Positions 2,482 through 29,287 of a stretch of 30,667 nucleotides of DNA are shown piece after piece. How positions within the stretch are numbered: the first letter of the stretch is position 1; the number at the start of each line of letters is the position of its first letter. Source of the DNA: a virus; IMG/VR virus record IMGVR_UViG_3300047678_000848, positions 1 to 30,667 of that record; one strand, written 5' to 3'. Position numbers and translations under genes: made by a program. The notes below the pieces were generated by a model, which made no database searches, was not told the DNA's origin, and saw only the letters and a list, made by a program, of their open reading frames with translations.

Positions 2482-5400
2482 CCAATCCGACTCTCTCACC
2501 AGTCCTCAAAGCGGCCCGCTGGTACGTCAGGAGCGGTTACAGCGTGATCCCCGTGCGCCTAGACGGCAGCAAGGCGCCCGCCATCAACCGCTGGAAGGCG
2601 TACCAAATCGTCGTCGCCGACGACGACGATTTGGTACGCTGGTTTGGAGCCGGGGCGAATGGCATCGCGATCGTCCATGGGCAGGTCTCTGGCCACAGTG
2701 AGGCACTTGACTTTGAGACCGAGGCCGCCTATGAGGAGTGGGAAAAGCTACTGCGTTCCCACGGGGGGGCGAGAATCGCCCAACGACACATCGTGGCGGT
2801 CATAACGCCTACAGGCGGTCGGCACGTTTATTACCGTTGCCCAGACGGCGTTCAGGGAAATCAGAAGCTGGCTCGCTTCCCAGATGGGGCCATCAAAAGC
2901 GAGACTCGGGGGGAGGGCGGCTACACACTCGCGCCTGGCTCGCCGGTGACGGCGCACCCGAGCAAGCGACCGTATCGAAGCGTCTCAGGCAGCTTTGACG
3001 ACGTCCCGTTGTTCACGGCCGACGAGCGTGCCTTGTGCCTGGCGCTCGCCCGCTCCTGCAACGCGCAGGCTGAGACCCACGTCACCGCTCCTGCACCCAA
3101 GGCGGGCGCGGCCACGACCACACCCGGCGGCAGACCTGGCGACGACTACAACCAGCGCGCCACTAGCGCCAGCGTCGCCGAGCTGCTCGCGCGCCACGGC
3201 TGGCAGGTTACGGGCTCCCACGGCGAGGCGATCCACCTGCTGCGGCCGGGCAAAACAAGGCCAGGTCTATCGGCGACGATAGGATACGTCGCGCCCGGAG
3301 TCCTGTACGTCTTTTCGTCCTCGGCCGCGCCGTTCGAGCCGGACGCATCATACGATGCGTTTGCTGTGCTGACTTTGCTGGAGCATGGCGGCGATTTTTC
3401 GGCAGCGGCGAGAGCGCTCGCCGAGCAGGGCTACGGCGATCCGCTGCCACCCAGCGTACGCGTGAGCGTCTCCAAGTACGCCCCGGTGCAGACCACTTCG
3501 CATGGTCAAGGTGCCGGTTCGGCACTTACGCCTTCGGCACTTACGCCAAAGGTCGAGGTGGCACTGGAAGAGGATTCGGACGACCCGTTCGCGCGCCCGA
3601 CGCCCGTGGTGGGCCCGCAGCCGAGCTACCAAGCTCGGCGCCAGGCCGACGACCCACTGGTCAAGTCGTCCGCCCCGGTGACGATGGGGATGGCGCAGAC
3701 GGACCTCGGCAACGCGGAGCGGCTGGTAGCGCGCCACGGTGGGGATATACGGCATTGCCCAGCGCTCGGCTGGCTCGTCTGGTCGGGTACGCACTGGAGC
3801 ATCGACGGGTCGGGTGAAGTGCTCAGGAGAATGAAAGGCACCGTGCGCGGCATTCTGGAGGAGGCGGCGGTGCTGCTGCACCAGGCGGGCCAGGCGACCG
3901 ACTCGGACACCGCCAAACACCTCCAGGCCGAATCGGACCGGCTCAAAGCGTTCGCCCGACGATCCGAGATGGAGGCACGCATCCGCGCTGCGATCAGCCT
4001 GGCGGAGAGTGAACCGGGCGTCTACGTCGCCTACGAAGAGCTGGACAACAAAGCGTGGCTGCTGGCCGTGCAGAATGGGACGATCGATCTGCACACGGGG
4101 CGTCTCCAGGCTCCGCGCCGCGAGGATCTGCTCACCCGATCTCTGAGCGTCGCCTACGACCCGGAGGCCACCTACCCCACCTGGGAGCGATTTTTATCGC
4201 GCACTCTACCCGACCCCGACGTGCGCGCCTATATCCAGCGTGCGGCTGGCTACAGCCTCACAGGCGACGTGAGCGAGCAGTGTCTGTTCATGCTCTACGG
4301 CAAAGGCAGCAACGGGAAAAGTACGTTCCTCCGGGTCTTGCTGACGCTCATGGGGCCGCTGGGCAAGCAGGCGGTAGCCGACCTGCTGATCGCGCGCCGG
4401 GCGGGCGAGATGAAGGACGAGATTGCGCAACTCGCGGGACGGCGCCTGGTGGCGACTATCGAGGTGGACCAAGGCAAAGCCATGGCCGAAGCGCTGGTGA
4501 AAACACTCACCGGCGGCGACCGGATCACGGCTCGGTTCCTTTACCGCAACTCGTTCGAGTTTGAGCCGACTTTTAAATTATGGCAAGCCGTCAACCACAA
4601 ACCCGACGTCAAAGGGTCGGATCACGGTTTATGGCGACGCATCAAGCTGATACCGTTCATGGAGACGATCAGCGCGGATGAGAAAGACCCGGACCTTGCC
4701 GCCAAGCTGACAGCCGAATTGCCAGGCGTGCTCGCCTGGGCGGTGCGTGGGTGCCTCGACTGGCGCAGCGCCGGTATGCGGGAGCCAGGCGCGGTCCAAG
4801 CACAGACGCAGGAGTACCGCAAGGAATCGGACGTGCTGGGCACGTTTCTCACCGAACGCTGCGTACTGGCACCAACGGCCCGCGTGCGGCCTGCAGAGCT
4901 GTATCATGAGTACGTGGCCTGGGCTGAAGCGCGGCGCGAAAGGCCTCGCTCACAGATCCATTTCAGCCGCCACGTCAAGGAGTGCGAAGGGGTCGAGAGC
5001 AAAATCGTGCGCGGCTTCCCTTACTACTGCGGCGTTGGGCTGCTCGCGCAAAACAGCGGCGAGGGTGAACCATTGGGGGGCGAGGGTGAACCATTGGGTG
5101 AGGCTTTGGGTGAACCATTTGCGAGGGGGGGTGAACCGGGTGAACCATTGTGGGGGAACTCTCCGCAATGTCCCCGCTCATACGTGAACAAAGGTTACAC
5201 AGACGAAAATGGTTCACCCTTAAAAGAAAATACCTCACCCTTAGAAAGGGAAAGGAGAGAGAAAGAGGTAAATACTGCTAATAACAGTCAAGAACGAGAG
5301 AAAAACGGCTTTGAGCAGGGTGAACCATTGGGGGGCAAGGGTGAACCATTTGAAGACGGCTTCAACGCATGCGAGCGCTGGCTGATTACGATCCTCCAGA

Positions 5401-5549
5401 CGGCGCCCCCGGTGGGTGAACGCTGGACCTGGAGACAGCAAGAAAACGCGGCTGTGGTCGCAGGGTTCACCCCACTGGAGACGATAAACGCTAGGATGCG
5501 GCTTTTGCGCGAGGGCTACATCGACAAAAACTGCGAGAGGGTACTGTGA
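2478..5549 (+). CDS. Primase-polymerase / D5-type superfamily 3 helicase (replicative)
   Basis: 1023 residues from GTG 2478, which overlaps the preceding stop; longer upstream frames lack homology-like sequence. Residues about 10-175 are a Prim-Pol (archaeo-eukaryotic primase) domain: ALDFE (metal-binding acidic pair), GGRHVYYR and GEGGYTLAPGS. Residues about 400-590 match the D5 N-terminal/primase C-terminal region (NGTIDLHTGRL, LTRSLSVAYDP). GKGSNGKST at 608-616 is Walker A, RRLVATIEVDQG (about 655) the Walker B region, LWQAVNHKPDVKGSD the SF3 sensor region. Residues about 862-960 are a GEPL/GEPF-rich disordered linker whose DNA is an iteron-like array. The last 60 residues look like a winged helix. 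The protein probably primes and unwinds at the phage origin. Palindromes at 2598, 3406 and 3620 and a 15-bp duplication at 3518 lie in the gene. Confidence 0.9.
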   Translation: MTNPTLSPVLKAARWYVRSGYSVIPVRLDGSKAPAINRWKAYQIVVADDDDLVRWFGAGANGIAIVHGQVSGHSEALDFETEAAYEEWEKLLRSHGGARIAQRHIVAVITPTGGRHVYYRCPDGVQGNQKLARFPDGAIKSETRGEGGYTLAPGSPVTAHPSKRPYRSVSGSFDDVPLFTADERALCLALARSCNAQAETHVTAPAPKAGAATTTPGGRPGDDYNQRATSASVAELLARHGWQVTGSHGEAIHLLRPGKTRPGLSATIGYVAPGVLYVFSSSAAPFEPDASYDAFAVLTLLEHGGDFSAAARALAEQGYGDPLPPSVRVSVSKYAPVQTTSHGQGAGSALTPSALTPKVEVALEEDSDDPFARPTPVVGPQPSYQARRQADDPLVKSSAPVTMGMAQTDLGNAERLVARHGGDIRHCPALGWLVWSGTHWSIDGSGEVLRRMKGTVRGILEEAAVLLHQAGQATDSDTAKHLQAESDRLKAFARRSEMEARIRAAISLAESEPGVYVAYEELDNKAWLLAVQNGTIDLHTGRLQAPRREDLLTRSLSVAYDPEATYPTWERFLSRTLPDPDVRAYIQRAAGYSLTGDVSEQCLFMLYGKGSNGKSTFLRVLLTLMGPLGKQAVADLLIARRAGEMKDEIAQLAGRRLVATIEVDQGKAMAEALVKTLTGGDRITARFLYRNSFEFEPTFKLWQAVNHKPDVKGSDHGLWRRIKLIPFMETISADEKDPDLAAKLTAELPGVLAWAVRGCLDWRSAGMREPGAVQAQTQEYRKESDVLGTFLTERCVLAPTARVRPAELYHEYVAWAEARRERPRSQIHFSRHVKECEGVESKIVRGFPYYCGVGLLAQNSGEGEPLGGEGEPLGEALGEPFARGGEPGEPLWGNSPQCPRSYVNKGYTDENGSPLKENTSPLERERREKEVNTANNSQEREKNGFEQGEPLGGKGEPFEDGFNACERWLITILQTAPPVGERWTWRQQENAAVVAGFTPLETINARMRLLREGYIDKNCERVL
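2598..2639. repeat. Perfect 19-bp hairpin, CCGA loop, in primase domain
   Basis: GCGTACCAAATCGTCGTCG (2598-2616), loop CCGA (2617-2620) and its exact complement (2621-2639). It is the longest perfect stem in the window. It codes for a stretch ending in four aspartates in the N-terminal primase domain. Confidence 0.85.
3518..3547. repeat. 15-bp tandem duplication in primase linker
   Basis: TTCGGCACTTACGCC is repeated exactly twice (3518-3532, 3533-3547) and encodes SALTPSALTP in the linker between the primase and helicase domains. It looks like a recent slippage duplication that keeps the frame. Confidence 0.8.
3620..3639. repeat. ACCA-loop palindrome in primase-helicase gene
   Basis: GCCGAGCT, loop ACCA (3628-3631), AGCTCGGC. 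It is a perfect 8-bp stem read in frame as P-S-Y-Q-A-R in the inter-domain linker. The same peptide appears in the scaffold gene at 11443-11462, where the same palindrome is read in the same frame. Confidence 0.75.
5063..5472. other. Candidate replication origin: iteron array in primase-helicase gene
   Basis: GGGTGAACCATT occurs exactly at 5063, 5084, 5108, 5138, 5318 and 5339 and inverted at 5208-5219. Shorter matches lie at 5129, 5414 and (inverted) 5464. Several spacings are 21 or 24 bases, close to two helical turns and also whole codons. Between the two groups, 5201-5300 is about 61% A+T by hand count, far above its GC-rich surroundings. Iterons, a neighbouring AT-rich segment and placement in the gene of the initiator/helicase match the lambda O arrangement. 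The alternative is a merely repetitive GEPL linker. No plus-strand consensus DnaA boxes were seen. Confidence 0.5.
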
Positions 5550-5713
5550 TGAACGACGGCCCGGCTTTGACAACGTTTACTATCAGCCTGTACAATCTGG
5601 TGACCCTATCCACAGGCCCATTCGCCGGACCCGGCGAATGTACCACGATGGGGCACAACCTCCAAGGCGCAAGACGCCCCGGCCGCAAAACTGCGTGCCG
5701 AAGGTGCGTCTGA
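5549..5713 (+). CDS. Possible 54-residue small protein with C/H cluster
   Basis: ATG 5549 overlaps the primase stop (TGATG) and opens a 54-codon frame ending at TGA 5711-5713. The protein has C31, H36, C50 and C53, which could form a small zinc site, and is basic at the end. Against it: the same DNA holds a near-consensus promoter (5567-5596) and a dispersed palindrome (5621-5646), and no ribosome site is visible, so translation would depend on coupling to the primase. It may be a spurious frame in a regulatory leader. Confidence 0.3.
   Translation: MNDGPALTTFTISLYNLVTLSTGPFAGPGECTTMGHNLQGARRPGRKTACRRCV
5567..5596 (+). promoter_or_regulatory. Sigma70-type promoter, probably for the late operon
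   Basis: TTGACA (5567-5572) is separated by 18 bases from TACAAT (5591-5596), five of six matches to the -10 consensus. Transcription would begin near 5603-5605. It sits directly after the replication genes and before packaging and structural genes, all of which follow on the same strand with only short gaps. This is the best promoter match I found in the window; the assignment to late genes is inferred from position. Confidence 0.6.
5621..5646. repeat. Second-family palindrome, simple form
   Basis: TTCGCCG, loop GACC, CGGCGAA, followed by tgtaccac. The same core and the same downstream TGT(C/A)CC context recur at 29771-29830 and, with an inserted ACCA-loop palindrome, at 11256-11321 and 13788-13853. 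Here it lies in the 5' leader about 20 bases downstream of the predicted transcription start. Confidence 0.65.
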
Positions 5714-5763
5714 TTTCCTGCTCGTTCCGGCTGTTTCTACGTGATTGATGGAGTCTCCCCCCC

Positions 5764-6171: not shown

Positions 6172-6898
6172 GACACCCCATGGCACAAGTCGGCGGACCC
6201 GGCGACTTGACCATGGCGGACCGGCAAGTACTTGCTGTGGCGCTTTGGCCCGCTCGACTGGCGAGCCCTGCCAGCAGCCCGCCATGGCGAACGGCCGCTG
6301 TCGGTATCACGGCGGGAAGTCCTTAACCGGCGTTGCGAACCCGGCGTACCGCGATGGCCGCCACAGCAAGTACCTGCCGGTCCGCCTAGCCGCCCGCTAC
6401 GGCCAGAGCTTGCTTGATCCGGACTACCTGGCCTTGCGCGATGAGCTGGCCCTAGTCGACGCCCGCATTAGCGAGCTGTCTGAGAGCCTGCCCGACAGCG
6501 AGGAGATTGCCCAAACCTGGGAGTCGTTTCGCGCCCACTTCGCCGGTGCGGCCAGTGCCTACGACCGTAGCCGGGACAGTGCGTTGGCACCCGAGAAGCG
6601 GGCAGAGGCGCAGACCGAATTTTTTCAGCGCTTCGAGGCTGCCCTGTTGTTGTTTGCCGACGCGAAATCGATCGAGCAGCGCGGGGGTGCTCTCTGGGAC
6701 AAAATCGGCGACTGGCTGGAGCGACGGCGCAAACTTTCCGAGACCGAGGCGCTGCGGGTTTCCAAGGCTGCCGAGTCCATCAGCCGCGACCGGCTTGCCG
6801 CGCTGATGGGCGCGATCGCTCAGCTTATCCGTGCTAATGTCCGCGACCCTGCAACGCTCAACGCCCTACAAGACGGACTGCGTCGGCTTTGCGCTTGA
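6161..6898 (+). CDS. HGGKS-motif zinc protein, putative small terminase subunit
   Basis: 245 residues. Residues 25-54 contain CCG, GEPC, GRC and HGGKS (C26, C37, C47, H50), the compact Cys/His site of a phage family commonly encoded next to large terminases and often annotated as terminase small-subunit-like or HGGKS protein. NPAYRDGRHSKYLP follows, also typical. The rest (about 90-235) is helical and charged, suiting an oligomeric DNA-binding protein. The gene overlaps its upstream neighbour by 11 bases and the terminase start by 62 bases. A degenerate second-family palindrome (around 6189-6208) lies in its N-terminal codons. The packaging role is inferred from family habit and position. Confidence 0.6.
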   Translation: MAGETPHGTSRRTRRLDHGGPASTCCGALARSTGEPCQQPAMANGRCRYHGGKSLTGVANPAYRDGRHSKYLPVRLAARYGQSLLDPDYLALRDELALVDARISELSESLPDSEEIAQTWESFRAHFAGAASAYDRSRDSALAPEKRAEAQTEFFQRFEAALLLFADAKSIEQRGGALWDKIGDWLERRRKLSETEALRVSKAAESISRDRLAALMGAIAQLIRANVRDPATLNALQDGLRRLCA

Positions 6899-8495: not shown

Positions 8496-8513
8496 TCCCA
8501 GCCGCCAAAGCTC

Positions 8514-8545
8514 ACACAAGCTCGCCGTCACCGGCGAGCTTGTGT
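8514..8545. repeat. Perfect 14-bp hairpin, TCAC loop, after terL
   Basis: ACACAAGCTCGCCG (8514-8527), loop TCAC (8528-8531), CGGCGAGCTTGTGT (8532-8545). It starts 19 bases after the terL stop in a 73-base gap. No T-run follows, so it is a weak candidate for a terminator; RNA processing or 3'-end protection is as likely. It is the best copy of the TCAC/GTGA family. Confidence 0.8.
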
Positions 8546-8568
8546 AGGCGGGCCAGGAAACGCGATCT

Positions 8569-8742: not shown

Positions 8743-8744
8743 CT

Positions 8745-9032: not shown

Positions 9033-9092
9033 CGCCAACGATCACGACGCCGACTGTATTAACCCTGGGTCTTGCGCCCGAAGGAGCTGACC

Positions 9093-9317: not shown

Positions 9318-9340
9318 ACGACAGACCGTACGCCCTTCTC

Positions 9341-11251
9341 ATGCCCCGGCTCACCTCGCGACTTTTCTCCGGCCTCGGCCGCCTCGGGCGCGGGGCTGCT
9401 CTGTCTCGCCCACAGGAGGTATCTGCACGCCAAAGCGCAGGGAGTCCGGGCCATTTCGAGCCTCTCGGCCCAGACGATTTCGACAGGGACGAATTCGAGG
9501 AGGCGGACGAGGAGCGCGGCGCGGTCCCGCCCGAAGGCGAGGCAGCGTGCGTCGATGAGATCAAGCGCTGGGTTGAGAACGCAAAAGCGGCGCGCGCGCC
9601 GCTGGAGGGCCTGTGGATCGAGGCCATGGCCGCGGCCGAAGGTTATCCCTTCGTGGAGTGGGACGAGCGCCAGCGCCGCTTGTCGAGCATCTACACCGCC
9701 GACGATCGGCACCGCTACGTCTGCCCGGGCGTGGTCAAGGAGCTGCTCGAAAAATTCGTCGCGCGGGCGACGCAAAGCAAGCCTGACGCGTCGCCAGTCG
9801 CTGTGAGTCAGGCCGATCTTGACCAGACGGCGGCCCGCGAGGCCCGCGCGATCTTCGCCGAGTGTGAACGCGAGCTCGATCCGCAAGGCACGCTGCGGCG
9901 CCTGGTGTACCTCGCTGGTATGAGCACCACAGCATTTCTCCAGCAGTATTGGGACGAGGCTAAAGAGGCATTGGTGCCTGTATTCGGCCCGTCCGGGGTC
10001 ATGACCGGCGCCAGACTTGAGCGCGTGGGCGGTGTGTGCGAACGGGTCTTCTCAGGACTCGACGTCCTGCTCGATCCAAGCGCCCGATCCTGGGACGAGG
10101 TGCGCCGTCTCTGCATTGTGATGCGCGTCCCGCCCGAGTACGTCAAATCCAAGTACGGCCTAGCGGTCGAGCCTGACGACGACGACACGCTTGCCTACGT
10201 CGACGCCCTGTTTACGGCCCGCTCCCGGGGTGCGCGCATGCAGGGAGCCAAAAAGCCGAATCTGTGCACGCTCTACGTCGTGGAAGACAAAGCTGGCGGC
10301 GCGGGCAGTAAGTATCCGCAGGGGCGCTATACGGTCGTTGTGGGGAATCGCCTGGCCCGCTACCAGGTGACGGGCCTGTACCCGCCCTACGACAAATTTT
10401 CGGTCATTCCACTGGGCTACCTGGAGGCGCAGGGTACGCCCTACGACCTGGGCAAGGTCGACGAGACAGCGCTGGCGAGTGAGCGCGCCATCGGGCGCAT
10501 CTCGTCGCGCTGGCTGGAAAAGATCGAAAAGGACCGTATCTTCATCTTCGAAGGGCCGGGCACGCAGACCGCTCCGGACGCCTACGAGGACGACGTCGCC
10601 CGCATCGTCAAGCGGGTGCCGATTGGTCCCCAGACGCCCCAGATCACGCCCATGGCGCCCGTCAGCAGAGACTGGGCAGACATGATCCAGTACCACCTGG
10701 GGCGCTTGCAGGACCATTTCGGGGTCCACGACATCAGTCAGGGCAAAACCCCCGCCGGGGTCACGGCTGGCAGCGCCATCGAGTTGCTGCTGGAGTCCGA
10801 CACGTCGCAGATGTCGATTTTTTTGCAGCGCGTGGAGCGTTTCTCCCAGCTACAGCGCGAGGGCTGGCTTCGCCTATACAGTCTGTTTGCCAAGGAGCCG
10901 CGGATCACGAGCGTCGACGAGTCAGGCAGCAGCGTGGGCGCGCAGTCAGGCGTCGTCGCGTTCGACGCGCTCTCCCAGGGCGGCCAAGTGCGCGTCCATG
11001 TGATACCCGGCAGCGCCGTGCCCAAGACGCCGGCGGCAAAAAACGAGCTGTATATCACGCTCTATAACGCGGGCGCTATGGGGCCGCCCGGCTCGCCCGA
11101 GGCCAACATCATGCTCTGGCGCCTGCTGTCGGACTCACGCAGCGATGAAGGCGTCGAGCACGCCCTGGACATGCTCCAGCAGCGTGAGGAGCAGCAGCAA
11201 GCTGAACAGGCGGCAATGACAGGCGCGGCCCAGTCGGGATTGCCTCGCTAG
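9341..11251 (+). CDS. Portal protein
   Basis: 636 residues. It forms the dodecameric DNA channel at the unique capsid vertex and docks the terminase. Support: position between terL and scaffold, size, and portal-like segments: KRWVENAKAARAPLEGLWIEA (clip/wing region), SGLDVLLDPSARSWDEVRRL, YPPYDKFSVIPLGYLEAQGTPYDLG, ISQGKTPAGVTAGSAIELLLES and a C-terminal glutamine-rich helix. The last motif, with its TAGSAI and following helix, is typical of podovirus/P22-like portals. The first 60 residues are acidic and probably disordered. Start ATG 9341 has no clear ribosome site; an AGGAGG at 9414 has no in-frame start after it. A fully self-complementary 18-base palindrome lies at 9586-9603. Confidence 0.88.
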   Translation: MPRLTSRLFSGLGRLGRGAALSRPQEVSARQSAGSPGHFEPLGPDDFDRDEFEEADEERGAVPPEGEAACVDEIKRWVENAKAARAPLEGLWIEAMAAAEGYPFVEWDERQRRLSSIYTADDRHRYVCPGVVKELLEKFVARATQSKPDASPVAVSQADLDQTAAREARAIFAECERELDPQGTLRRLVYLAGMSTTAFLQQYWDEAKEALVPVFGPSGVMTGARLERVGGVCERVFSGLDVLLDPSARSWDEVRRLCIVMRVPPEYVKSKYGLAVEPDDDDTLAYVDALFTARSRGARMQGAKKPNLCTLYVVEDKAGGAGSKYPQGRYTVVVGNRLARYQVTGLYPPYDKFSVIPLGYLEAQGTPYDLGKVDETALASERAIGRISSRWLEKIEKDRIFIFEGPGTQTAPDAYEDDVARIVKRVPIGPQTPQITPMAPVSRDWADMIQYHLGRLQDHFGVHDISQGKTPAGVTAGSAIELLLESDTSQMSIFLQRVERFSQLQREGWLRLYSLFAKEPRITSVDESGSSVGAQSGVVAFDALSQGGQVRVHVIPGSAVPKTPAAKNELYITLYNAGAMGPPGSPEANIMLWRLLSDSRSDEGVEHALDMLQQREEQQQAEQAAMTGAAQSGLPR

Positions 11252-11255
11252 GCCA

Positions 11256-11321
11256 AGTCGCCGAGCCTGGCGAAGCCGAACCCCGAGTTACCAAGCTCGG
11301 GGTTGGGCGAATGTCCCGCAG
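11256..11321. repeat. Composite palindromic element, copy 1
   Basis: A 66-base unit in the portal-scaffold gap, 62 of 66 identical to copy 2 (13788-13853). It contains a second-family hairpin (about 11258-11273) directly followed by a 15-bp ACCA-loop hairpin (11275-11308, one mismatch and one G-T pair). The ACCA hairpin interrupts the second-family sequence and is bounded by GGCGAA on both sides. Confidence 0.8.
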
Positions 11322-11389
11322 ATACCTCGCCGTCCCGGGTTGGGCGCTAAACGACCCGGATGGAATCTGTTGATTCCGGAGAACCACCT

Positions 11390-12178
11390 ATGGACGAACT
11401 ACTCGCAGACGGCTCGTCCGCGTCTGCAACCAGCGATGATGGCCCGAGCTACCAAGCTCGGGATGGTCAGGGATTCGAGGCGCGCGACTATGGCGACAGC
11501 TTAGACAGCGCTGCCGAGAAGGCAACGCTTGCCGAGCCGGAAGGGGGTGTTGAGCCTGCTGTAAGCCCCGAGCCGGACGCTGCGGCGACCGTGCCCTGGC
11601 ACAAAGATCCGCGCTTTCAGGAATGGAAGCAGGCTGAGACGCGCTACAAGCGTTTCGAGAGCCTGATCCAGCAGCTCGAAACTCAGGGGTTCGGCTCCGC
11701 CGACGATATCCAGGCGGCGCTCGAAGTACAGCGCCAACGCGAGGAGCTTTTGCACTACCAGCAGAGCCTGGAGGAGCAAGGCGTCGACGAAGTCGTGCAG
11801 CAGGAGTTGATTGCCGCCCGGCAACACGCAGCCCAACTGGAGGCGCGTGATCGTTACTGGCAGACACACGTGACCAACTCCGCCCTGCGGGAGGCGCGCG
11901 CCGTCCTGCCAGATATGACCCCAGATATTGAAAATCATTTGCGGAAATTGCCGCCCGATGCCATCGGCCAGATCGCCGAGACCCTCGCCGCCTATAAGGC
12001 GAGGGTCGAGAAGGCCGCTGTCGCCCGCTACGTCACCGAAAAATCCGCCGCCTTAAAGCAGCACCAGCAGCCGGAAGTCGGACGGGGGACTCCCCCGTCC
12101 GCCCGAATTGAGAATGCGTCGCCTGATACGCCGCTTTCGCAGCTTCTCGGCCTGCTGCCCCTGCCTCGGCGCGGATAA
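11390..12178 (+). CDS. Scaffolding protein
   Basis: 262 residues from ATG 11390, with GGAG at 11377-11380; an ATG 30 bases upstream lies in a small hairpin (11362-11377) and lacks a ribosome site. It is acidic, low in aromatic residues and rich in Gln/Glu, with long helical segments from about residue 78 to 165 and 170-225 that should form coiled coils. It lies directly before the capsid gene, the classic position for a scaffold that guides prohead assembly and is then lost. Residues 18-24 (G-P-S-Y-Q-A-R) come from an inserted ACCA-loop palindrome (11443-11462). The final 60 codons contain two more perfect hairpins (11980-12007, 12079-12101). Confidence 0.78.
   Translation: MDELLADGSSASATSDDGPSYQARDGQGFEARDYGDSLDSAAEKATLAEPEGGVEPAVSPEPDAAATVPWHKDPRFQEWKQAETRYKRFESLIQQLETQGFGSADDIQAALEVQRQREELLHYQQSLEEQGVDEVVQQELIAARQHAAQLEARDRYWQTHVTNSALREARAVLPDMTPDIENHLRKLPPDAIGQIAETLAAYKARVEKAAVARYVTEKSAALKQHQQPEVGRGTPPSARIENASPDTPLSQLLGLLPLPRRG
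11443..11462. repeat. ACCA-loop palindrome inside scaffold gene
   Basis: CCCGAGCT, ACCA (11451-11454), AGCTCGGG. Perfect 8-bp stem. It encodes the same P-S-Y-Q-A-R peptide as the copy in the primase gene at 3620-3639, in an acidic, probably disordered N-terminal region. Confidence 0.8.
11980..12007. repeat. Perfect 10-bp inverted repeat in scaffold gene
   Basis: GACCCTCGCC (11980-11989), 8-base spacer, GGCGAGGGTC (11998-12007). It encodes part of a helix (ETLAAYKARVEKA). Confidence 0.7.
12079..12101. repeat. Perfect 10-bp hairpin with ACT loop in scaffold gene
   Basis: CGGACGGGGG (12079-12088), ACT, CCCCCGTCCG (12092-12101). The triloop ACT is shared with the hairpin at 15652-15676. Confidence 0.75.
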
Positions 12179-12184
12179 CGATGG

Positions 12185-12202
12185 CGGAGCTACCAAGCTC
12201 CG
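12185..12202. repeat. ACCA-loop palindrome after scaffold gene
   Basis: CGGAGCT, ACCA (12192-12195), AGCTCCG, seven bases after the scaffold stop. It is an intergenic copy with the CGG...CCG type outer stem, unlike the CCG...CGG type inside the scaffold gene. Confidence 0.8.
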
Positions 12203-12231
12203 TCCCATAACGGACCACTTAGGAACTCGGC

Positions 12232-12253
12232 AAGCAGGGCAGATGCCCTGCTT
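12232..12253 (+). terminator. Terminator-like or processing hairpin before the capsid gene
   Basis: AAGCAGGGC (12232-12240), loop AGAT, GCCCTGCTT (12245-12253), then a GT-rich stretch with two TTTT runs (12260-12270). The stem is strong but the T-run is interrupted, so partial termination or an mRNA-processing/stability hairpin that raises capsid output is as likely. It ends 29 bases before the capsid ATG. Confidence 0.45.
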
Positions 12254-12282
12254 TGCGGGGTTTTGTGGTTTTGGAGACTCCT

Positions 12283-13305
12283 ATGCCCGTCGAATCCCAA
12301 TCGTATACACTGTCCGAAATCGCCGGGCGCAGCAATGACCCGATCCTCAAAAAGGTCGTGAACGTGCTGCACGAAGGCAACAACATCATGACGGATATCC
12401 CGTTGCGGACCAATGCGGCGCTCAAGATGCGCTGGTCGCGCTACGACCACACCTCGTCGCTGCCCACGATCAACTGGGCCAAAATCAACGAAGAACCTGC
12501 GGCAACGCGCGGCAAGCCGAGCTTCTACAGCACGGAAATGGCACTGATCCGCAATCTTTTCTCCATTGACCGCCGCCTAGCCGCGCAGCCCGACACCATC
12601 GGCAACCCGATCGACGACGATTTTGAGATCTGGAAGCAGGTTTTGCAGTACGAGTTCAACCGCCGGTTCATCTATAACGACCCGGCGACCGGTGAGGAAG
12701 ACGCGCCCGCAGGAATCAACACGATCCTGGCGAACCCATCGGTTTACGGCATGATCTCGGACACCAAGATCAACGTCAACCTCGACATCTCGCTCGCGAA
12801 CGTGACCGCCGCGGCGGCGCGCGCGCTCATGGTCCATTTGCAGCGCATCATTGCCCGTTGCACAGGCGGCAAGCGGCTCAAAGGTATTTTCTACTGTAAC
12901 CAGGACACGCTTGTTCTTGTTGCCAACGCCGCCCGCGTATTGGGTACGGGTGCAGGTTTCGACATCACACGCGATTCCTACGACCGTCCGTTTACGACGT
13001 TCATGGGTTACCCATTCAAGGACATCGGCTACGACGTCTCCCAGACGAACTACATCATCACCAACACCGAGCCGGCGACCGGCACCGGCAACACGGGGGG
13101 CACGGCGACGTCCGTTTACTTTGTGACCTACGGCGACCAAGCCGTGACCGGCTGGCAGCCCGAAGACCTGACCATCGAGCCGCTCGGTCGCTCGGAGCGC
13201 GGCACGCACAACCTGTATCTCATCGACTGGGGTGTCGGCTGGGCGTTCAAAGGCCCGCGCTGCATCGGCCAGCTCCACAACCTGACCCTGGGCTCGCTGC
13301 CGTAG
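12283..13305 (+). CDS. Major capsid protein
   Basis: 340 residues from ATG 12283, with GGAGACTCCT directly upstream (12272-12281). The N-terminal text SEIAGRSNDPILKKVVNVLHEGNNIMTDIPLRTN (here quoted only as: NVLHEGNNIMTDIP, about residues 27-40) is the arrangement of a widespread podo/siphovirus capsid family in which a helix is followed by an 'N.I..D.P' loop. Length, order (portal, scaffold, capsid) and the absence of palindromes or repeats agree with a highly constrained structural gene. C-terminal GWAFKGPRCIGQLHNL is also capsid-like. It would form the icosahedral shell. The fold is presumably HK97-like, inferred from the family. Confidence 0.88.
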   Translation: MPVESQSYTLSEIAGRSNDPILKKVVNVLHEGNNIMTDIPLRTNAALKMRWSRYDHTSSLPTINWAKINEEPAATRGKPSFYSTEMALIRNLFSIDRRLAAQPDTIGNPIDDDFEIWKQVLQYEFNRRFIYNDPATGEEDAPAGINTILANPSVYGMISDTKINVNLDISLANVTAAAARALMVHLQRIIARCTGGKRLKGIFYCNQDTLVLVANAARVLGTGAGFDITRDSYDRPFTTFMGYPFKDIGYDVSQTNYIITNTEPATGTGNTGGTATSVYFVTYGDQAVTGWQPEDLTIEPLGRSERGTHNLYLIDWGVGWAFKGPRCIGQLHNLTLGSLP

Positions 13306-13306
13306 C

Positions 13307-13329
13307 AAGCTCGCCGGTGACGGCGAATT
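13307..13329. repeat. GTGA-loop palindrome after capsid gene
   Basis: AAGCTCGCCG, loop GTGA (13317-13320), CGGCGAATT, with one C-A mismatch and one G-T pair. It is the opposite-orientation loop of the TCAC family (540-562, 8514-8545). It begins two bases after the capsid stop. A second imperfect stem, ATTCCC...GGGAAT, follows at about 13357-13378. Confidence 0.6.
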
Positions 13330-13392
13330 CTCTAGCGCCCTAACGGACCCTGACGATTCCCACGCGCGCGCGCGGGAATGGAGAACGAAACC

Positions 13393-13782: not shown

Positions 13783-13787
13783 GTCAT

Positions 13788-13853
13788 AGTCGCCGGGCCC
13801 GGCGAAGCCCAACCCCGAGTTACCAAGCTCGGGGTTGGGCGAATGTCCCTCAG
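13788..13853. repeat. Composite palindromic element, copy 2
   Basis: 66 bases, four differences from copy 1 at 11256-11321. It has a fully self-complementary 16-base second-family core (13790-13805) and a 15-bp ACCA-loop hairpin (13807-13840) with a single G-T pair, bounded by GGCGAA on both sides. It begins 6 bases after the preceding stop and ends ahead of the chosen start of the next gene. Confidence 0.82.
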
Positions 13854-13884
13854 TGCCACGCCCCTGAAAGTGCGAAATTTCGCC

Positions 13885-18151: not shown

Positions 18152-18181
18152 CCTTCGGTCGCCGGGCCACTAAGGAGACTC

Positions 18182-18720: not shown

Positions 18721-18729
18721 AGTAATATT

Positions 18730-21945: not shown

Positions 21946-21956
21946 CCCCGAGCCAC

Positions 21957-22082
21957 GGAGCTACCAAGCTCCGTGAAGGAGCTACCAAGCTCCGTGAAGG
22001 AGCTACCAAGCTCCGTGAAGGAGCTACCAAGCTCCGTGAAGGAGCTACCAAGCTCCGTGAAGGAGCTACCAAGCTCCGTGAA
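21957..22082. repeat. Six perfect tandem copies of a 21-bp ACCA-loop hairpin unit
   Basis: The unit is GGAGCT-ACCA-AGCTCC-GTGAA; copies begin at 21957, 21978, 21999, 20 more at 22020, then 22041 and 22062, all identical. Each unit is a 6-bp hairpin (8 bp in the first, which is preceded by AC and followed by GT) plus a GTGAA linker. The array is 126 bases, seven codons per unit, ending ten bases before the next ATG. The linker of one unit plus the next stem reads GTGAAGGAG, a Shine-Dalgarno-like sequence half buried in a stem. It fills nearly the whole gap between two structural genes. Confidence 0.95.
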
Positions 22083-22092
22083 GGAAACGAGA

Positions 22093-22899: not shown

Positions 22900-22900
22900 T

Positions 22901-24229
22901 ATGATCGGTCTGGATATCGGGGGGCTCATGGCGCTGCTGGAAAAGCGCCGACGTGACACGTCTCCAGTCCTCGCTGGCGGTAGCGACCCGCGCGTCTTCA
23001 CGGAGCTTGGTAGCTCCGTCCGGTCCCGTCCGCTCGCCCTGGTGCGGGACGGCGTTTCCGACCCGCTCGACGTAGCTCCCGACCTGCCGCAAGATCCCAC
23101 ACGGAGCTTGGTAGCTCCGTCCGGGTCGGTTTCGCGCCCGCCTCACCCGACGCTAGTCGGTGGCTCTTACGCCTACGAGCCCGCGCCGACCATGGCCCCG
23201 CTGCCGGGTGCGCCGCGCCACTCCCTCCCTGAGGAACGGGCCTCGCTGGGTCGTGGTGCCCTACTCGGTGGGCTAACGGGCTTGCTGTTGGGTCAGGGGC
23301 TGCGCGGGGCTGCTGCGGGCGCGGGCGGCTTCGCGCAGGGCTTTGGACAGGGGGCGGATCGGGCGGACGCGATTCGGCGTCAGCAGTGGGGAGACCAGAT
23401 CCACCAGCAGCTGCAGGACTTCAGCCATCAGCGCCAAGGCTGGGCGGATAAAACGGCGCTGACAGACCGGCAGATGCGCGCAGACGGGATGCAAAACGCA
23501 AACGCTCTGCGCACCTACCAGACCGATATGGCCGCCTACGAGCAGGCGATGAACCGGTTCCAGCGAGAAGCACAGGCCAAAGCCGACCGGGCAAGTCGAG
23601 AAGCGGTTGTAGGAAACACTCTTGCCGAGCAGCGGCGGCAGTTCGACACGGCGCAGCCGCACAAGATCAAGCAGATACAGTCGCAAAACCACTACCGCGC
23701 AGCGATGGCCGACTTTCTAGGCACGCGCGCAGCCGATATCGCCGCAGACAACAACCACATAAAAAAGAAAGACGCAGCGGACCGGCGGCTCGCTAAGCAG
23801 CGTCTGGCGAACGAACTGGAGCGTATCGCCCTAGCAGAGCGCTCGCGCAAAGACCGATTGCAGTTGGGGACGCAGAGCAACCAGATTCAAGCGCGGCGCG
23901 CGGCGACTGAGCGGGGCAAGAAGCTGACCTGGGCCGACGTGCAGAAAAGTCTGGCCGACATCGCCGCCCGTGCCTCCGTGCTGGAATCGCCTGTACGCGT
24001 CGATTTCGACGAAGTCGATAAAAAGGGCGGATTTTCCAGAAAGGGGACACGTTACGATCCGGCACCCAGCGAGAAGGTGGCGGCAGCCCTCGCGCTGCGA
24101 GATGCGATCATAGCCAAAGCGGCCGAGTGGGGGTACATGGTCGAGTTTCAAAATGGTCGGCCAATCTACACAAAGGCGGGACGTCGTCCTAGCGGCGGCT
24201 ATCTGGATGGGGGCGCAGGAAAACGCTGA
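22901..24229 (+). CDS. Internal virion protein with coiled coils
   Basis: 442 residues from ATG 22901, with GGAGGTGG at 22888-22895; a GTG nine bases earlier overlaps that site and is less likely. Residues about 1-110 are Pro/Ser rich and contain two ACCA-family palindromes (TGGT orientation). Residues about 117-150 are glycine-rich and hydrophobic (ALLGGLTGLLLGQGLRG), able to insert in a membrane. Residues 150-360 are long charged helices rich in Gln/Arg/Ala (coiled coil). The last 80 residues form a small domain (PVRVDFDEVDKKGGFSRKGT). Proteins of this build are packaged in podovirus heads and ejected to form a channel. It is coupled to the next gene by TGATG. Confidence 0.6.
   Translation: MIGLDIGGLMALLEKRRRDTSPVLAGGSDPRVFTELGSSVRSRPLALVRDGVSDPLDVAPDLPQDPTRSLVAPSGSVSRPPHPTLVGGSYAYEPAPTMAPLPGAPRHSLPEERASLGRGALLGGLTGLLLGQGLRGAAAGAGGFAQGFGQGADRADAIRRQQWGDQIHQQLQDFSHQRQGWADKTALTDRQMRADGMQNANALRTYQTDMAAYEQAMNRFQREAQAKADRASREAVVGNTLAEQRRQFDTAQPHKIKQIQSQNHYRAAMADFLGTRAADIAADNNHIKKKDAADRRLAKQRLANELERIALAERSRKDRLQLGTQSNQIQARRAATERGKKLTWADVQKSLADIAARASVLESPVRVDFDEVDKKGGFSRKGTRYDPAPSEKVAAALALRDAIIAKAAEWGYMVEFQNGRPIYTKAGRRPSGGYLDGGAGKR
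23000..23120. repeat. Two ACCA-family palindromes in one gene, in different reading frames
   Basis: Copies at 23000-23019 and 23101-23120: ACGGAGCT, TGGT, AGCTCCGT, both followed by CCGG, so 24 bases are identical. The first is read as T-E-L-G-S-S-V and the second as R-S-L-V-A-P-S, a different frame. Both lie in the Pro/Ser-rich N-terminal part of the internal protein. Confidence 0.85.
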
Positions 24230-27200
24230 TGCCAGATATCATTGGGCGCAGCGCCCGGACGGGGCGACAGTACCAGATCCGCTACAATGGCCCCGGCGCG
24301 CTGACGGATCGCGAGATCCAGCGCGCTGTCGACAAGGCCGAGGCCGACAACGAGGGGTACGACATCGAGCGGATCGTCGTCCAACCCGCCGGAGCGAGCG
24401 GGGATCAGCCCGTCCTCACCCTGGCGAAGGAACGGCCTGTGGGCACCGTAGCCGCGGGCCTTGGCGCTCGGCTGGAGGGCGAGATGCGCGTCCGCACAGG
24501 CCGTCTGGCCGCCCGCCTAGGGACGGTCGAGCCTGTCCAACAGATGCGCCCGGTGTCAGACTCGCCGCTCTTGCGCCTGCTGGCAAACGTCAAGACCGGC
24601 ATCTACGATTCGTCCCAGCGCCTGGCGGACGGGATGACCCTGAAGAACGCTGCGCCTGAGCGGGCCAAAAACGCGGCGCAGTTTTTGGCCCAGACCTTGC
24701 CAGAGTCGACCATGCGGGCGCTGGCGGGCATCGCAACGAGCCCCATAACCGCGCCTGGTGCCCTGCTGCAGAACGTCATGAACGCGGGTACACGCCGCGC
24801 CTACGGCCAGGAGCAGGCGTCAAACAGAGACCCGCTGACGCGCATGGCAGGAGCGGGCGAGCAAAGGGCAGCGGGCAAGGATCTGGTGTTCGGCACACTG
24901 GGTGCTGCCGTACCGTTCTCGGGCGAGATTCGGGCGGCGACGGATGGCGGCGTCGGTAGCGCGTGGGACGCGCTGAAAGAGCGTGCATTATCGGACCCGA
25001 TATCGCTGGGGATCGACGCCGTTCCAGTGGTTGGTGCATTACGTGGAGGTGTCGGTGCCACCAAAGCAGCCAGTCTGGCCAGGTCTGCCTTGCGGAAACC
25101 TCTCCCTGTGAGCACCGTTCCGATCCAGGTACATTCGCCCAACCATGGGGCTTCGCCGAGGACGGCGACTGTAGCAACCGAAGCGCCGCGCCCCTACGCG
25201 CACGTGAAGCGGGGCAGCGAACGGGCTCGCCTGGCACCGGAGGATCTGGAGCAATTCCCTGGTGGGACCGGCCCGATGGCTTTCACCTTCGGGGATGCCA
25301 CCAACAACGGGATGTACGTCAATCCGACGACCGGGGCACAAGTACGGCTCCATGGTGGCATTGGCTACTCGCTCGATGACGAACACTTCGGCCGCTTTGC
25401 ATGGGCGTCTAAGGGAGCGCGCCAGGCAAATGCGATCCCTCGTCGCGCACAAGAGACCGGCGGCCTAGTCCATGTTGTCAACATGAAGCCCGAGGCCATG
25501 CTAACGAGCCAGCACGGTGTCCTCGTGCTCCAGGCTGAAATCGACGCCGCCATCCGGAACGGCACCGCTACTCCAAGCGACTTTCTGCATATGGTTAACG
25601 CGGTAATAGAGATGAAGGGGGGGAAGCCGATCCAGCTTCTGGGGCGTCGTCCCGAACAAGCGCTGGCCACTCTGGCGGATCACCTCACGGTTTTATCGTT
25701 TGAACAGCGGAAGCGCATTGTTCAGGCAGCGCTCAGCAAAAAGCAAAAATGGCTCCCTGACTACGAAACCGTGTTACCCCTCATGCGCGATCCCGCACTT
25801 GAGGGGGCACGAGCTGGAGACATCGTTGGATCGCTGTATGTCGATCCAAAGGGGCAGCCCGTCCCTGCTCGCGTACTGGGCGCTCCGGAGCACCCGGCCT
25901 ACCCCCTGGCGATACCTGGCACCGGCCTCGGTCTTGCATCTACCAGGCCCCATCTGCAGGAACTACTAACCGACCTGTTTGAACAGGTGAGAAACGACAT
26001 CTCCCAGCGTTGGGCAGCGCAAGGCAAAAAAGGGAAAAATGGTGTTCCGGCTATTCCCAGCGACGCCGAAGTGTACAATGAAGTCAGCCTACTACTGGAG
26101 CGCAAACATGATAACGTCTGGACAGGAAACAGAGATGCCGCCGCAACACAGCTCACTCAACCCCGACCTGGTGGAGTTCTTCGCGGCACTGTGGGCGGAA
26201 GCGACGCGCCTGGAACGGCAGCGTATGGCAGCCTCGCAAACGACCAAGCCCTATCTGGTGGCGGCAGGGATTCTATCCGAGGACGGGCAGAACCAGCCGG
26301 TGGCGGCGAGCTTGCAGCGGGGGGCGAGTCCCGAGCACCGAATCTAGCCCGAGCACCGAATCTAGTTCGAGGCCCCCATCCACCGACCCGCCACAACCTG
26401 CCGTCGATCGAAGAGAGGTTCGGTAATCTGATCGGCGGCCCGCAGGCGCGCTCCGCCTTGCATCATTCGGATTCGGGCAGGAGTGGTACTGCGCCCAGCT
26501 CTCTCCCCTTGGGCGGGATGACGCGTGCGGCACAGCACGCGCTCGCCGAGCGCCTGGGCTACGAACTCGATTCGGACGGCAACATCCCTCGTACGCATGC
26601 CCAAACCATCGAACGCGCCCTGGCACGACGCGATGAACTCAGCGCCCTGATCGACGAGCGCGAGCCGGGACGCGACGTGCCGGGCAGCAATGAGGAAATG
26701 GTGATCGTTGACCTGCGCCAGCAAGAGGCCGAACAACGGTATACCGCCCTAGCGCACGACGCGCCTGAGACCGAGCGCCTAGCCGCGCTGGCGGAAATCT
26801 CAGGACTTGGACGGCTCAAGGTGGCGTGGGGTCGCGAAGCAGGTCGCAACCTTGGTTTTATTCGGGCGGTTGTCCCCGACCCGACGAGCGTTGCTCACAC
26901 CATCACGGCTGTCGAGAAGGCAGTTGGCGAGGACCTCTCGCCAGCGTCGCGACAGTGGTTTGCGAAAAAGGCGACGGAGGCAAAGGAAGCCAAGGAGAAG
27001 ATCGACGCGCAGATCGCCACGCGGGGTGAGAAAGCGGCAGCCAAGCTCCGCGGTCAGTTCGCCCGCTTCGATACGAGCGCGGAGTCGATGCAGACGCAGA
27101 TCAAGGCGTTGCAAAAACAGGCCCGCAAATCGAATCGTTTGCGCGGGCGGCTCGCCAGTAAAACGGAAGCCGCGCAAACCGCTGCACAGGAAGCGGCAGA

Positions 27201-29223
27201 TGCAGCTGCAACTGCCCAGGGTGAGTACGACGCGACGCTCGTGCCGAAAGCCACCCAGCGCACTCAGGCGGCGGCAGAGCAACGACTCCTGCGTGCAAAC
27301 GAGGTGGCCGCACAGAGACAGGCCGCCATCAAGGGGCTGGAAGAGGAGCTTCGAAATCTCGAGACGAAGCGGCCGTATCTTGATAAACAGATCGCCGCGC
27401 TAAAAGCGGAAATCCCCGTGGCGCGCCGGGAGAACCGCATGGCAGAACGCTCGGCGGAGCGACTACAGCAGCGCCTCGATGCGCTCACTGCCCAGGCCTA
27501 CGAGTCGACCCAGCGCAAGGAACGGCTGGTTTCAGATCTTGCCAGCAAGAGAGCGGCGATGCGCAAGCAGGCGGCGGCAGATGAGCGCATCGCTACGCTC
27601 GGCGCAGACCGAGCGCGCCGCACTCCGCATCTCAATCCGTATATCGATGTCGCGCTTGGGGAGTACACTGCCGGTGCGACCAAGCTCGACCTCTTGGCCC
27701 GGCGACTCAAGGCGAAGATCGGGACGGATCTACCGATAGATCTCGTCGAGGAGCTTTTCAAAGAAGCCGCCGCGCGGTACAAGGTCGACTACAAGGCCGT
27801 CGACGATATCGCGTTTGAGATGTCCCAGCGCGTCGAGCGAGAGCTGCGCCAGCGCAAGTCCTTCGTTCTTCGGGGATTCGCGGCGCTGGGCGATATAGCG
27901 AACGCGCACCAAACGATGCTTGCGAGCGGCGATCTATCGGGTCTTGGCCGCCAGGGAGGGCTGGTCAGCGGTCCGAACATGCTCGGTCTGCGTGGCCGCA
28001 CCGGGCTACAAAGTATGTTTGGCGGTGCGGGTAGCAGCGGGGCGATCCGCGACATGCTCCGCGCTGGAGGGAGCGAGAACGAGCTAGCCCGGCAAGAGGC
28101 CGGACTCTCCGCCCGGCAGACCCGGCTCTACGGCGACGCGAATCACTACGAGAGGGTCGGTCTGGATCTGACGACGACAGATCGCAAGGCAGGTGCGGCA
28201 TTCCACGAGGAAGAGTTTCGATCGTCGCCGGCGGAGCGCATCCCGGTCCTCGGGCGCGGCGTCGCGGCGTCTGAGCGCGCCTACAATGCGGTCCTGAACC
28301 GGCTGCGGGCAGATCAGTTTGACTACATGGTCCGGGGGCTCAAAAGCACGGGTGAGCAGCTCACGCGCGACCAGGAGGTCATGGCGCGATGGACCAACGT
28401 GCTGACCGGGCGCGGCGATCTGCGCGAGTTCGGCAAGCCCGAAAACGCGGCTGTGGTCGCATCGGCTTTGGCCAACAGCGTGACCTGGTCGCCCCGTTTC
28501 GCCCTGTCGCGCGCCCAGTTCATCGTCGCGCCACTGAACCCGATGAGCGCCATGTATGCCCGTGGCATCAGCCGCCAAGCACGGCTGCGCATCGCGGGAG
28601 ATCTGGCAAAAACGTGGGCATCGATCTACACCACGATGCTGCTGGCGCGGCAAGTGGGGTGTCAGGTCGAGCTCGATCCCAGACACCAAGATTTCGGACT
28701 CATCCAACTGCCTGGCAGCGACCTAGAGATCGACGCCATGGCCGGACTACGGCCGACCATGCGCGCCAGCAGCAGGATGCTGACGAACACTACGCTAGAC
28801 TCGCGCAATGGCATGACAAACAAGCAGCCAAAGCCTCACGATACCGACTACCCTCTCGAATTGGGGAAGTTCCTCTTCGGCAAGAGCCGCCCTGTGATTG
28901 GCCTCGGGACAGAGACGTTGTCGGGACACACGACAACCGGCGAAAAATTCGACGCGCCGGAGGCGGCGACGCAGCTCCTGCTCAATATCGGCGTGGCGGA
29001 TATGGTGCGCGGTTTCCGCGCACAGGGCTACAGCCAGCAGACGGCGGCAGAACTCGCGGCAGCGTTCACACTATCGACCCTCGGTGTGGGCGCCAGTGTG
29101 CGCGACCGGTTCGGCGAGGAGGCGGATCGGCACTTTGACCGGAAAATTCAGCGGCTCCTCCCTGACGAGCCCGCCGGTTTGTGGAACGTGATCAGCAACG
29201 GCTTCGCTCGGGGCGAGCGCTAA
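24229..29223 (+). CDS. Very large multidomain internal (polyvalent-like) virion protein
   Basis: 1664 residues from ATG 24229, which overlaps the previous stop. Regions: 1-115 with a small N-terminal domain; 120-280 Ala/Gly rich with hydrophobic helices (ISLGIDAVPVVGALRGG); about 348-595 a globular domain (MAFTFGDATNNGMYVNPTTG, RLHGGIGYSLDD, VHVVNMKPEAMLTS, GDIVGSLYVDPKGQPV) which I recall from giant phage/plasmid polyvalent proteins but cannot name; 600-720 low complexity; about 911-1128 a long coiled coil; about 1441-1664 a C-terminal region (LNPMSAMYARGIS, LDPRHQDFGLIQLPGSDLEID) of the large-polyvalent-protein type. It is probably packaged and ejected with the DNA, with enzymatic or counter-defence modules. 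An 18-bp tandem duplication and an 11-bp hairpin (24662-24691) lie in the gene. Confidence 0.65.
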   Translation: MPDIIGRSARTGRQYQIRYNGPGALTDREIQRAVDKAEADNEGYDIERIVVQPAGASGDQPVLTLAKERPVGTVAAGLGARLEGEMRVRTGRLAARLGTVEPVQQMRPVSDSPLLRLLANVKTGIYDSSQRLADGMTLKNAAPERAKNAAQFLAQTLPESTMRALAGIATSPITAPGALLQNVMNAGTRRAYGQEQASNRDPLTRMAGAGEQRAAGKDLVFGTLGAAVPFSGEIRAATDGGVGSAWDALKERALSDPISLGIDAVPVVGALRGGVGATKAASLARSALRKPLPVSTVPIQVHSPNHGASPRTATVATEAPRPYAHVKRGSERARLAPEDLEQFPGGTGPMAFTFGDATNNGMYVNPTTGAQVRLHGGIGYSLDDEHFGRFAWASKGARQANAIPRRAQETGGLVHVVNMKPEAMLTSQHGVLVLQAEIDAAIRNGTATPSDFLHMVNAVIEMKGGKPIQLLGRRPEQALATLADHLTVLSFEQRKRIVQAALSKKQKWLPDYETVLPLMRDPALEGARAGDIVGSLYVDPKGQPVPARVLGAPEHPAYPLAIPGTGLGLASTRPHLQELLTDLFEQVRNDISQRWAAQGKKGKNGVPAIPSDAEVYNEVSLLLERKHDNVWTGNRDAAATQLTQPRPGGVLRGTVGGSDAPGTAAYGSLANDQALSGGGRDSIRGRAEPAGGGELAAGGESRAPNLARAPNLVRGPHPPTRHNLPSIEERFGNLIGGPQARSALHHSDSGRSGTAPSSLPLGGMTRAAQHALAERLGYELDSDGNIPRTHAQTIERALARRDELSALIDEREPGRDVPGSNEEMVIVDLRQQEAEQRYTALAHDAPETERLAALAEISGLGRLKVAWGREAGRNLGFIRAVVPDPTSVAHTITAVEKAVGEDLSPASRQWFAKKATEAKEAKEKIDAQIATRGEKAAAKLRGQFARFDTSAESMQTQIKALQKQARKSNRLRGRLASKTEAAQTAAQEAADAAATAQGEYDATLVPKATQRTQAAAEQRLLRANEVAAQRQAAIKGLEEELRNLETKRPYLDKQIAALKAEIPVARRENRMAERSAERLQQRLDALTAQAYESTQRKERLVSDLASKRAAMRKQAAADERIATLGADRARRTPHLNPYIDVALGEYTAGATKLDLLARRLKAKIGTDLPIDLVEELFKEAAARYKVDYKAVDDIAFEMSQRVERELRQRKSFVLRGFAALGDIANAHQTMLASGDLSGLGRQGGLVSGPNMLGLRGRTGLQSMFGGAGSSGAIRDMLRAGGSENELARQEAGLSARQTRLYGDANHYERVGLDLTTTDRKAGAAFHEEEFRSSPAERIPVLGRGVAASERAYNAVLNRLRADQFDYMVRGLKSTGEQLTRDQEVMARWTNVLTGRGDLREFGKPENAAVVASALANSVTWSPRFALSRAQFIVAPLNPMSAMYARGISRQARLRIAGDLAKTWASIYTTMLLARQVGCQVELDPRHQDFGLIQLPGSDLEIDAMAGLRPTMRASSRMLTNTTLDSRNGMTNKQPKPHDTDYPLELGKFLFGKSRPVIGLGTETLSGHTTTGEKFDAPEAATQLLLNIGVADMVRGFRAQGYSQQTAAELAAAFTLSTLGVGASVRDRFGEEADRHFDRKIQRLLPDEPAGLWNVISNGFARGER
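24662..24691. repeat. Perfect 11-bp hairpin with 8-base loop in the 1664-residue gene
   Basis: GGGCCAAAAAC (24662-24672), spacer GCGGCGCA, GTTTTTGGCCC (24681-24691). On either strand it resembles an intrinsic terminator stem without a free T-run. It encodes part of a helix (ERAKNAAQFLAQ). Confidence 0.7.
26330..26365. repeat. 18-bp tandem duplication
   Basis: CCCGAGCACCGAATCTAG occurs twice in a row (26330-26347, 26348-26365) and encodes APNLARAPNLVR in the low-complexity linker of the 1664-residue protein. It keeps the reading frame. Confidence 0.85.
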
Positions 29224-29269
29224 AAACCCCGTTCGTCCTCTTCGGTCGCCGAGCGCGGCACCTTGACCA

Positions 29270-29287
29270 CGGAGCTTGGTAGTTCCG
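29270..29287. repeat. Degenerate ACCA-family palindrome before the holin gene
   Basis: CGGAGCT, TGGT (29277-29280), AGTTCCG; one G-T pair in the stem. Located in the 102-base gap after the 1664-residue gene. A further degenerate relative follows at about 29296-29312. The rest of this gap shows only a weak second-family-like core (29244-29258). Confidence 0.6.

Follow-up and report, generated by a model that had tools for sequence, protein, structure and literature searches.

Short palindromes scattered through small genomes have been described from several kinds of organism, including phages. In the cluster O mycobacteriophages (Corndog and its relatives), a short palindrome is dispersed through a single phage group, in gaps and in genes and in both orientations; Corndog itself holds 34 copies of a 17-bp palindrome, and the cluster O palindrome, present in dozens of copies, is missing both from those host genomes that were checked and from mycobacteriophages of other groups (PMC4351075). 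Bacillus phage SPbeta carries another dispersed element, SPBRE, a 15-bp motif of promoter regions that is bound by the repressor MrpR (PMC10516654). The subject of this report is a family of hairpins with the loop ACCA, 18-34 nt long and present in 14 copies at nine places in the IMG/VR virus record IMGVR_UViG_3300047678_000848. The window (the whole stretch of DNA that was analysed) is the complete record of 30,667 bases, linear and with a G+C content of 64%; its source is an uncultured virus of bacteria, a podovirus-like phage.

The ACCA family shares with the cluster O palindrome its dispersal in one phage through gaps and genes and in both orientations, and it was not found as a family in the cellular genomes searched. 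The construction of the two repeats differs. The cluster O arms are invariant and the 3-base centre is variable, which fits the site of a dimer, whereas here the centre and the inner five pairs are nearly fixed and the outer pairs covary. Nesting and a tandem array, both seen here, are not described in the cited portion of the cluster O account (PMC4351075). SPBRE is similarly a repeated element dispersed in a phage genome, but it belongs to promoter regions, whereas the copies here lie mostly 3' of genes or inside them (PMC10516654). Dispersed phage palindromes are thus already known, which reduces the novelty claimed by the initial annotation of this stretch; its statement that no such element had been described in phages was too strong.

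Comparable elements outside phages are larger, differently tagged, or confined to other compartments. The Rickettsia palindromic elements (RPE) are palindromic repeats that, as here, occupy gaps and also, in frame, protein genes, and no dedicated transposase is known for them; they are bacterial and 105-146 bp long, whereas the present family is far shorter and resides in a phage (PMC2229807, PMC3733652). REP classes carry a GTAG or CGTC end tag (the CGTC-tagged repeats include RPE), and no such tag accompanies the present copies (PMC3733652). The repetitive hairpin-forming elements (RHE) of mitochondrial genomes are short hairpins that spread in a small genome and are, like these, structurally and compositionally divergent, but they are found in intergenic regions and the phage copies also in genes (PMC2800124). 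RHE are recognised by being dispersed and missing from close relatives; the ACCA copies are dispersed and absent elsewhere, and no close relative was found for comparison. The mitochondria of Nematomorpha contain perfect inverted repeats in functional coding sequence, as does this phage at 2598, 18375 and 24662, although the nematomorph palindromes are much longer (up to 284 bp) and do not form a repeated sequence family (PMC6649704). The apparent novelty lies in finding together a fixed loop, stems that change but stay paired, nesting, insertions into coding sequence and a genome rich in palindromes. The copies are as follows.

3620..3639, + strand: A1, ACCA hairpin with an 8-bp stem, in the primase-polymerase gene between the Prim-Pol and D5 domains
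11275..11308, + strand: A2, ACCA hairpin within a B-type repeat 3' of the portal gene; at most 15 pairs, one of them T-G, with a G-G mismatch
11443..11462, + strand: A3, ACCA hairpin close to where the putative scaffold gene begins, with an 8-bp stem; ATGG on both flanks
12183..12204, + strand: A4, ACCA hairpin with 9 pairs, one of them G-T, directly 3' of the putative scaffold stop codon
13807..13840, + strand: A2b, ACCA hairpin with 15 pairs, one of them T-G, within a B-type repeat
21954..22085, + strand: A5-A10, six tandem 21-nt units, the first with a 9-bp stem and the others with 6 bp; strong fold (z = -8.7)
23000..23019, - strand: A11, reverse copy (TGGT on the + strand) with an 8-bp stem, inside gene 22901-24229
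23101..23120, - strand: A12, reverse copy with an 8-bp stem, in gene 22901-24229, 101 nt past A11 and in another frame
29270..29287, - strand: A13, reverse copy with 7 pairs, one of them G-T, between gene 24229-29223 and the holin gene; CCA on both flanks

The family is real. Its near-invariant core is GAG(C/T)TACCAAGCTC, reversed in three copies, and the exact 14-mer GAGCTACCAAGCTC is found in 11 of the 14 copies: nine with ACCA on the + strand, six of which are the tandem units at 21954-22085, and two with TGGT. The remaining three copies differ by one change each (GAGTTACCAAGCTC at 11285 and 13817, and a reverse copy with AGTT at 29272). Wherever AG(C/T)T-N4-AG(C/T)T occurs in the window, the loop is ACCA or TGGT and no other. 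Every copy listed in the initial annotation is present where it was placed, and the description of a dispersed family with a conserved loop holds. The exact 14-mer stands at 7 separate places, compared with 2 for the largest hairpin family in 30 Markov shuffles, so a chance origin, which would yield no copy of the core, is ruled out; palindromes of equal frequency, which the annotation had named as contrary evidence, were found neither in Markov nor in codon-preserving shuffles. A covariance model recovers the known copies and no further degenerate or decayed copy in the window, which implies that the family is either young or strongly kept. Five of the nine places are intergenic, though intergenic DNA makes up roughly 5% of the window, and four lie in open genes. 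Avoidance or enrichment of AGCT as a restriction site was also considered and rejected, the AGCT ratio outside the copies being an unexceptional 0.83.

The outer stem bases vary among copies and mostly still pair. Over nine pairs in 11 aligned copies, 90% of cells are paired; pair 6 is C-G in 4 copies and G-C in 7, and pair 8 occurs as A-T, C-G, G-T and G-C. The covariation score of 0.30 is higher than in all 500 column shuffles (mean 0.11) and all slid registers, so the covariance test proposed in the annotation comes out above chance. Its assertion that the outer bases always pair goes too far: five of the six tandem units stop at a 6-bp stem followed by an A/G mismatch, the copy at 29270 breaks at pair 8, and 11275 has a G/G mismatch (a T-G pair occurs in both 11275 and 13807). 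Because the outer sequences form just two groups, related to each other (CCG..CGG and CGG..CCG), independent double changes are few, though the variation at pair 8 and the stem of 15 pairs at 13807 raise their number. Covarying stems had been taken to indicate selection on, or copying of, a folded nucleic acid rather than a protein. The nucleic-acid character and some compensating changes are borne out; compensation alone does not prove selection on a folded molecule, because unrelated perfect hairpins are numerous in this genome, in coding sequence too, and template switching has been published as a process that creates stems and re-pairs both members in a single mutation event (PMC8794818).

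The coding copies lie between the Prim-Pol and D5 domains of the primase and near the N-termini of two other proteins. Two of them, at 3620 and 11443, translate as PSYQAR, whereas A11 (23000) and A12 (23101) are one sequence read in two frames of the same gene. The segments they encode rank high in disorder propensity (95th percentile for A1, 78th for A3, 94th for A11 and 94th for A12). A repeat maintained at the protein level is ruled out by the differing frames and by the copies in gene gaps; the feature is not driven by protein, since several frames are used, the coding copies sit in disorder-prone segments and others are intergenic.

The best evidence for insertion comes from a second hairpin family, B, with the loop GACC. 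The B repeat, AGTCGCCAGACCCGGCGAATGTCCCACAG, is uninterrupted at 5610 and twice at 29771-29830, and is split by a 34-nt ACCA hairpin at two other places; the occurrence of the hairpin within the repeat, together with the uninterrupted versions, points to insertion. When the 34-nt hairpin is deleted along with a single copy of the 3-nt repeat GAA, B is rebuilt at 24/29 and 26/29 positions at the two sites. The contexts of A2 and A2b are 94% identical over 66 nt, so that these two places are copies of each other. The stem of B itself differs between the copies at 5610 and 6178 yet pairs in both. A third family, D, has the arm AAGCTCGCCG and the loop TCAC; arm and loop recur at 539-557, 2938-2954 and 13306-13326, although other viruses commonly carry the D sequence as a coding phrase. 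Both B and D find only single, incidental matches in IMG/VR. Their members are listed here.

5610..5646, + strand: B1, uninterrupted GACC hairpin (CATTCGCCG-GACC-CGGCGAATG)
6178..6214, + strand: B2, GACC hairpin with a different but pairing stem (CAAGTCG..CGACTTG)
11256..11321, + strand: B repeat split by A2
13788..13853, + strand: B repeat split by A2b
29771..29830, + strand: B repeat twice in tandem without interruption; coding, at the 3' end of the holin gene
8514..8545, + strand: D, 14-bp perfect hairpin with loop TCAC, 3' of the terminase gene

Perfect hairpins are in excess across the whole genome. Stems of 12 or more pairs occur at 2.0 per 10 kb in the window, against 0 to 1.1 in eight control phages, and perfect stems of 10 or more in coding sequence number 7, against 0.48 in codon-preserving shuffles; none of the seven is an ACCA copy. 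Long hairpins are mostly free of mismatches in the window and mostly carry one in the eight control phages. Perfect inverted repeats lie within coding sequence at 2598, 18375 and 24662, and the first of these (2598-2639, in the Prim-Pol coding region) is a 19-bp perfect hairpin with the loop CCGA; two rare codons, TTG and GTA, occur in the 3' arm, which looks as if it had been copied from the 5' arm. Given this general excess, template switching could produce paired stems without selection on RNA.

Several other repeats were recorded in the same genome. A 15-bp perfect inverted repeat (2462-2476 and 2542-2556) surrounds the probable start of the primase gene, and the gap upstream of that gene has two more long perfect hairpins, at 2245-2274 and 2368-2405. 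Copies of GGGTGAACCATT at 5058-5158 and 5312-5351, in the coding end of the primase gene, encode the peptide GEPLG, and one short stretch is inverted at 5207. A 28-nt inverted repeat with one mismatch (6215-6242 and 6359-6386, 116 nt apart) has both arms coding, in a gene with the motif CRYHGGKS. The 21-nt sequence GAAAACGCGGCTGTGGTCGCA is repeated directly and identically at 5442-5462 and 28441-28461, in two unrelated genes, and is one of several unexpectedly long dispersed coding repeats. Unrelated perfect hairpins in genes at 12079-12101 (10 bp) and 15652-15676 (11 bp) both have the 3-base loop ACT. The gap that separates the putative scaffold gene from the gene for the major head protein contains a likely intrinsic terminator at 12232-12261 (GCAGGGCAGATGCCCTGC followed by GGGGTTTTGTGG).

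All detected genes are on the + strand, and the gene set is podovirus-like. It comprises a cut-off helicase, a primase-polymerase with D5 helicase, terminase, portal and major head protein, together with tail and internal virion proteins, a holin and an M15-type endolysin. No end repeats were found in the 30,667-base record. DNA comparison with 50,697 phage records gives no near relative, and searches of IMG/VR with the capsid, the terminase and the portal gave none either; the primase alone gives relatives, at 34-41% identity, and these lack the hairpin family. The phage is therefore a singleton in the searched collections, which limits every comparative test. A repeated hairpin in one primase relative, the distantly related phage contig L151, proved to be an ordinary 12-nt tandem repeat of about 43 copies (L151 2486-3100).

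Scans for the core, which the initial annotation had suggested extending to related phages and candidate hosts, covered IMG/VR and 84,980 species genomes (257 billion bases, bacterial and archaeal), and returned single occurrences and no family. In other viruses the core occurs singly, and its stem extension is about at chance level in 119 cases. The stricter form SSGAG..CTCSS is found in ten IMG/VR stretches, and SSSGAG..CTCSSS in only 14 stretches of the bacterial and archaeal genomes, once in each; several of the outside stretches resemble isolated terminators with T-runs. No host or other virus in the collections searched carries the family in this exact form, and as judged from these sequence scans the ACCA family is private to this virus within them. 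An origin from tRNA or in a known RNA family was rejected: ARAGORN finds none in the window and Rfam gives only 2 chance-level matches.

Among the alternatives to be weighed are functional RNA hairpins, selected for structure at transcript ends or between genes as REP-like mRNA stabilisers, processing sites or attenuators. An A, B or D hairpin or another strong stem lies in nearly all gene gaps of at least 60 nt, often at most 30 nt from a stop codon, and folding is far stronger than in shuffles at 11246-11330 (z -4.3), 12170-12260 (z -3.6) and 21950-22092 (z -8.7). The strong folds and post-stop positions leave room for a role at mRNA ends, but the copies within genes (four of nine places) and the three reversed copies, whose RNA loop would be UGGU as all genes run in the same direction, argue against this as a complete account. 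Folds are also weak at 29240-29326 and 13300-13392. Hairpins of the whole genome show no clear bias of G-T pairs toward the transcribed strand (2 G-T against 3 A-C), and the pair-8 G-T of A4 and A13, which is likely to be common by descent, lies on opposite strands. Selection for RNA structure is an unlikely account of the family. The copies might instead bind a dimeric phage protein as duplex DNA, either as operators or as architectural sites, by analogy with Corndog, where this is suspected, and SPBRE, where it is shown. So constant a 14-bp dyad (GAGCT-ACCA-AGCTC), in both orientations, in gaps and genes, in a tandem array of six and absent from other genomes, makes this a serious rival, and the distribution is like that of the 34 Corndog repeats (PMC4351075). 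Binding would not, however, require outer bases that differ yet pair, or a stem as long as the 15 pairs at 13807, and a usual spacer is not invariant as the centre is here; most copies are 3' of genes, promoter-like sites are not in excess, and no regulator gene was recognised in the fragment. We regard binding sites as improbable on balance.

A miniature transposon of the REP/RAYT or MITE kind, moved by a transposase of the host or of the phage beyond the sequenced fragment, would agree with the nested insertion and its 3-nt repeat GAA, with CCA at 29270 and with ATGG at 11443. A Y1 (REP-type/RAYT) transposase, which the initial annotation had thought worth seeking, is missing from the record (a PF01797 search gave no match while control genomes were positive, the record being a fragment), and no cellular genome searched has the family. 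The flanks of the nine places share no tetranucleotide, hence no GTAG end tag at the hairpin foot, and on the + strand CGTC overlaps the stem at its 3' end in no copies but A4, A11 and A12, short of a general CGTC tag. Edge direct repeats of 3 to 4 nt occur at 3/9 places (p 0.03-0.17 each; ATGG at 11443, p 0.03; CCA at 29270, p 0.08) and are absent from most, so that there is no target-site duplication of constant length such as marks MITEs. Such a transposon is very unlikely. Intrinsic terminators are less probable still and are largely refuted: four stretches in other genomes (L131, L133, L138 and L143) show the same core with a longer stem and nearby T-runs, but no copy in the window has a T-run after the stem, and the terminator-like site in these gaps is the unrelated hairpin at 12232.

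The reading we favour, to which we give about an even chance, is that of a young family of short self-complementary repeats that multiplied inside one phage lineage. A replicating or recombining strand would fold at a hairpin and switch template; the switch would carry the core to a new site and, by copying one arm onto the other, lengthen or re-pair the stem. Copies would survive where they do least harm, just 3' of stop codons and in flexible protein segments, and some of those at gene ends may later serve as mRNA 3' hairpins. Fold-back template switching of this kind would jointly explain the variable paired outer stems, both orientations, the nesting and the perfect hairpins found genome-wide.

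Several points weigh against multiplication by template switching. The family, its distribution, its nesting and the excess of palindromes are shown; the route of copying is inferred from pattern rather than from events that were seen, and the transport of a core to a distant site is conjectural. The two related groups of outer sequences leave few independent compensating changes (pairs 6 and 8), and the fully invariant loop would be explained by neutral copying only if the family is recent. The edge repeats are weak, there is no empty site at an orthologous position to show for want of a close relative, and the fragment yielded neither the Y1 enzyme nor a reverse transcriptase. A bolder proposal, possible but doubtful, is that the hairpins are selfish units without a transposase: fold-back template switching in the phage's own replication would spread the cores of A, B and D and perfect their stems, and the apparent covariation would be mutational rather than a product of RNA selection, also inside protein genes.

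If copying dispersed the family, the phage would offer a clear case of tiny non-coding hairpins spreading, even through protein genes, as in Rickettsia and mitochondria. It would also caution that stems which covary do not necessarily reflect an RNA structure under selection, since this genome seems to make perfect stems itself.

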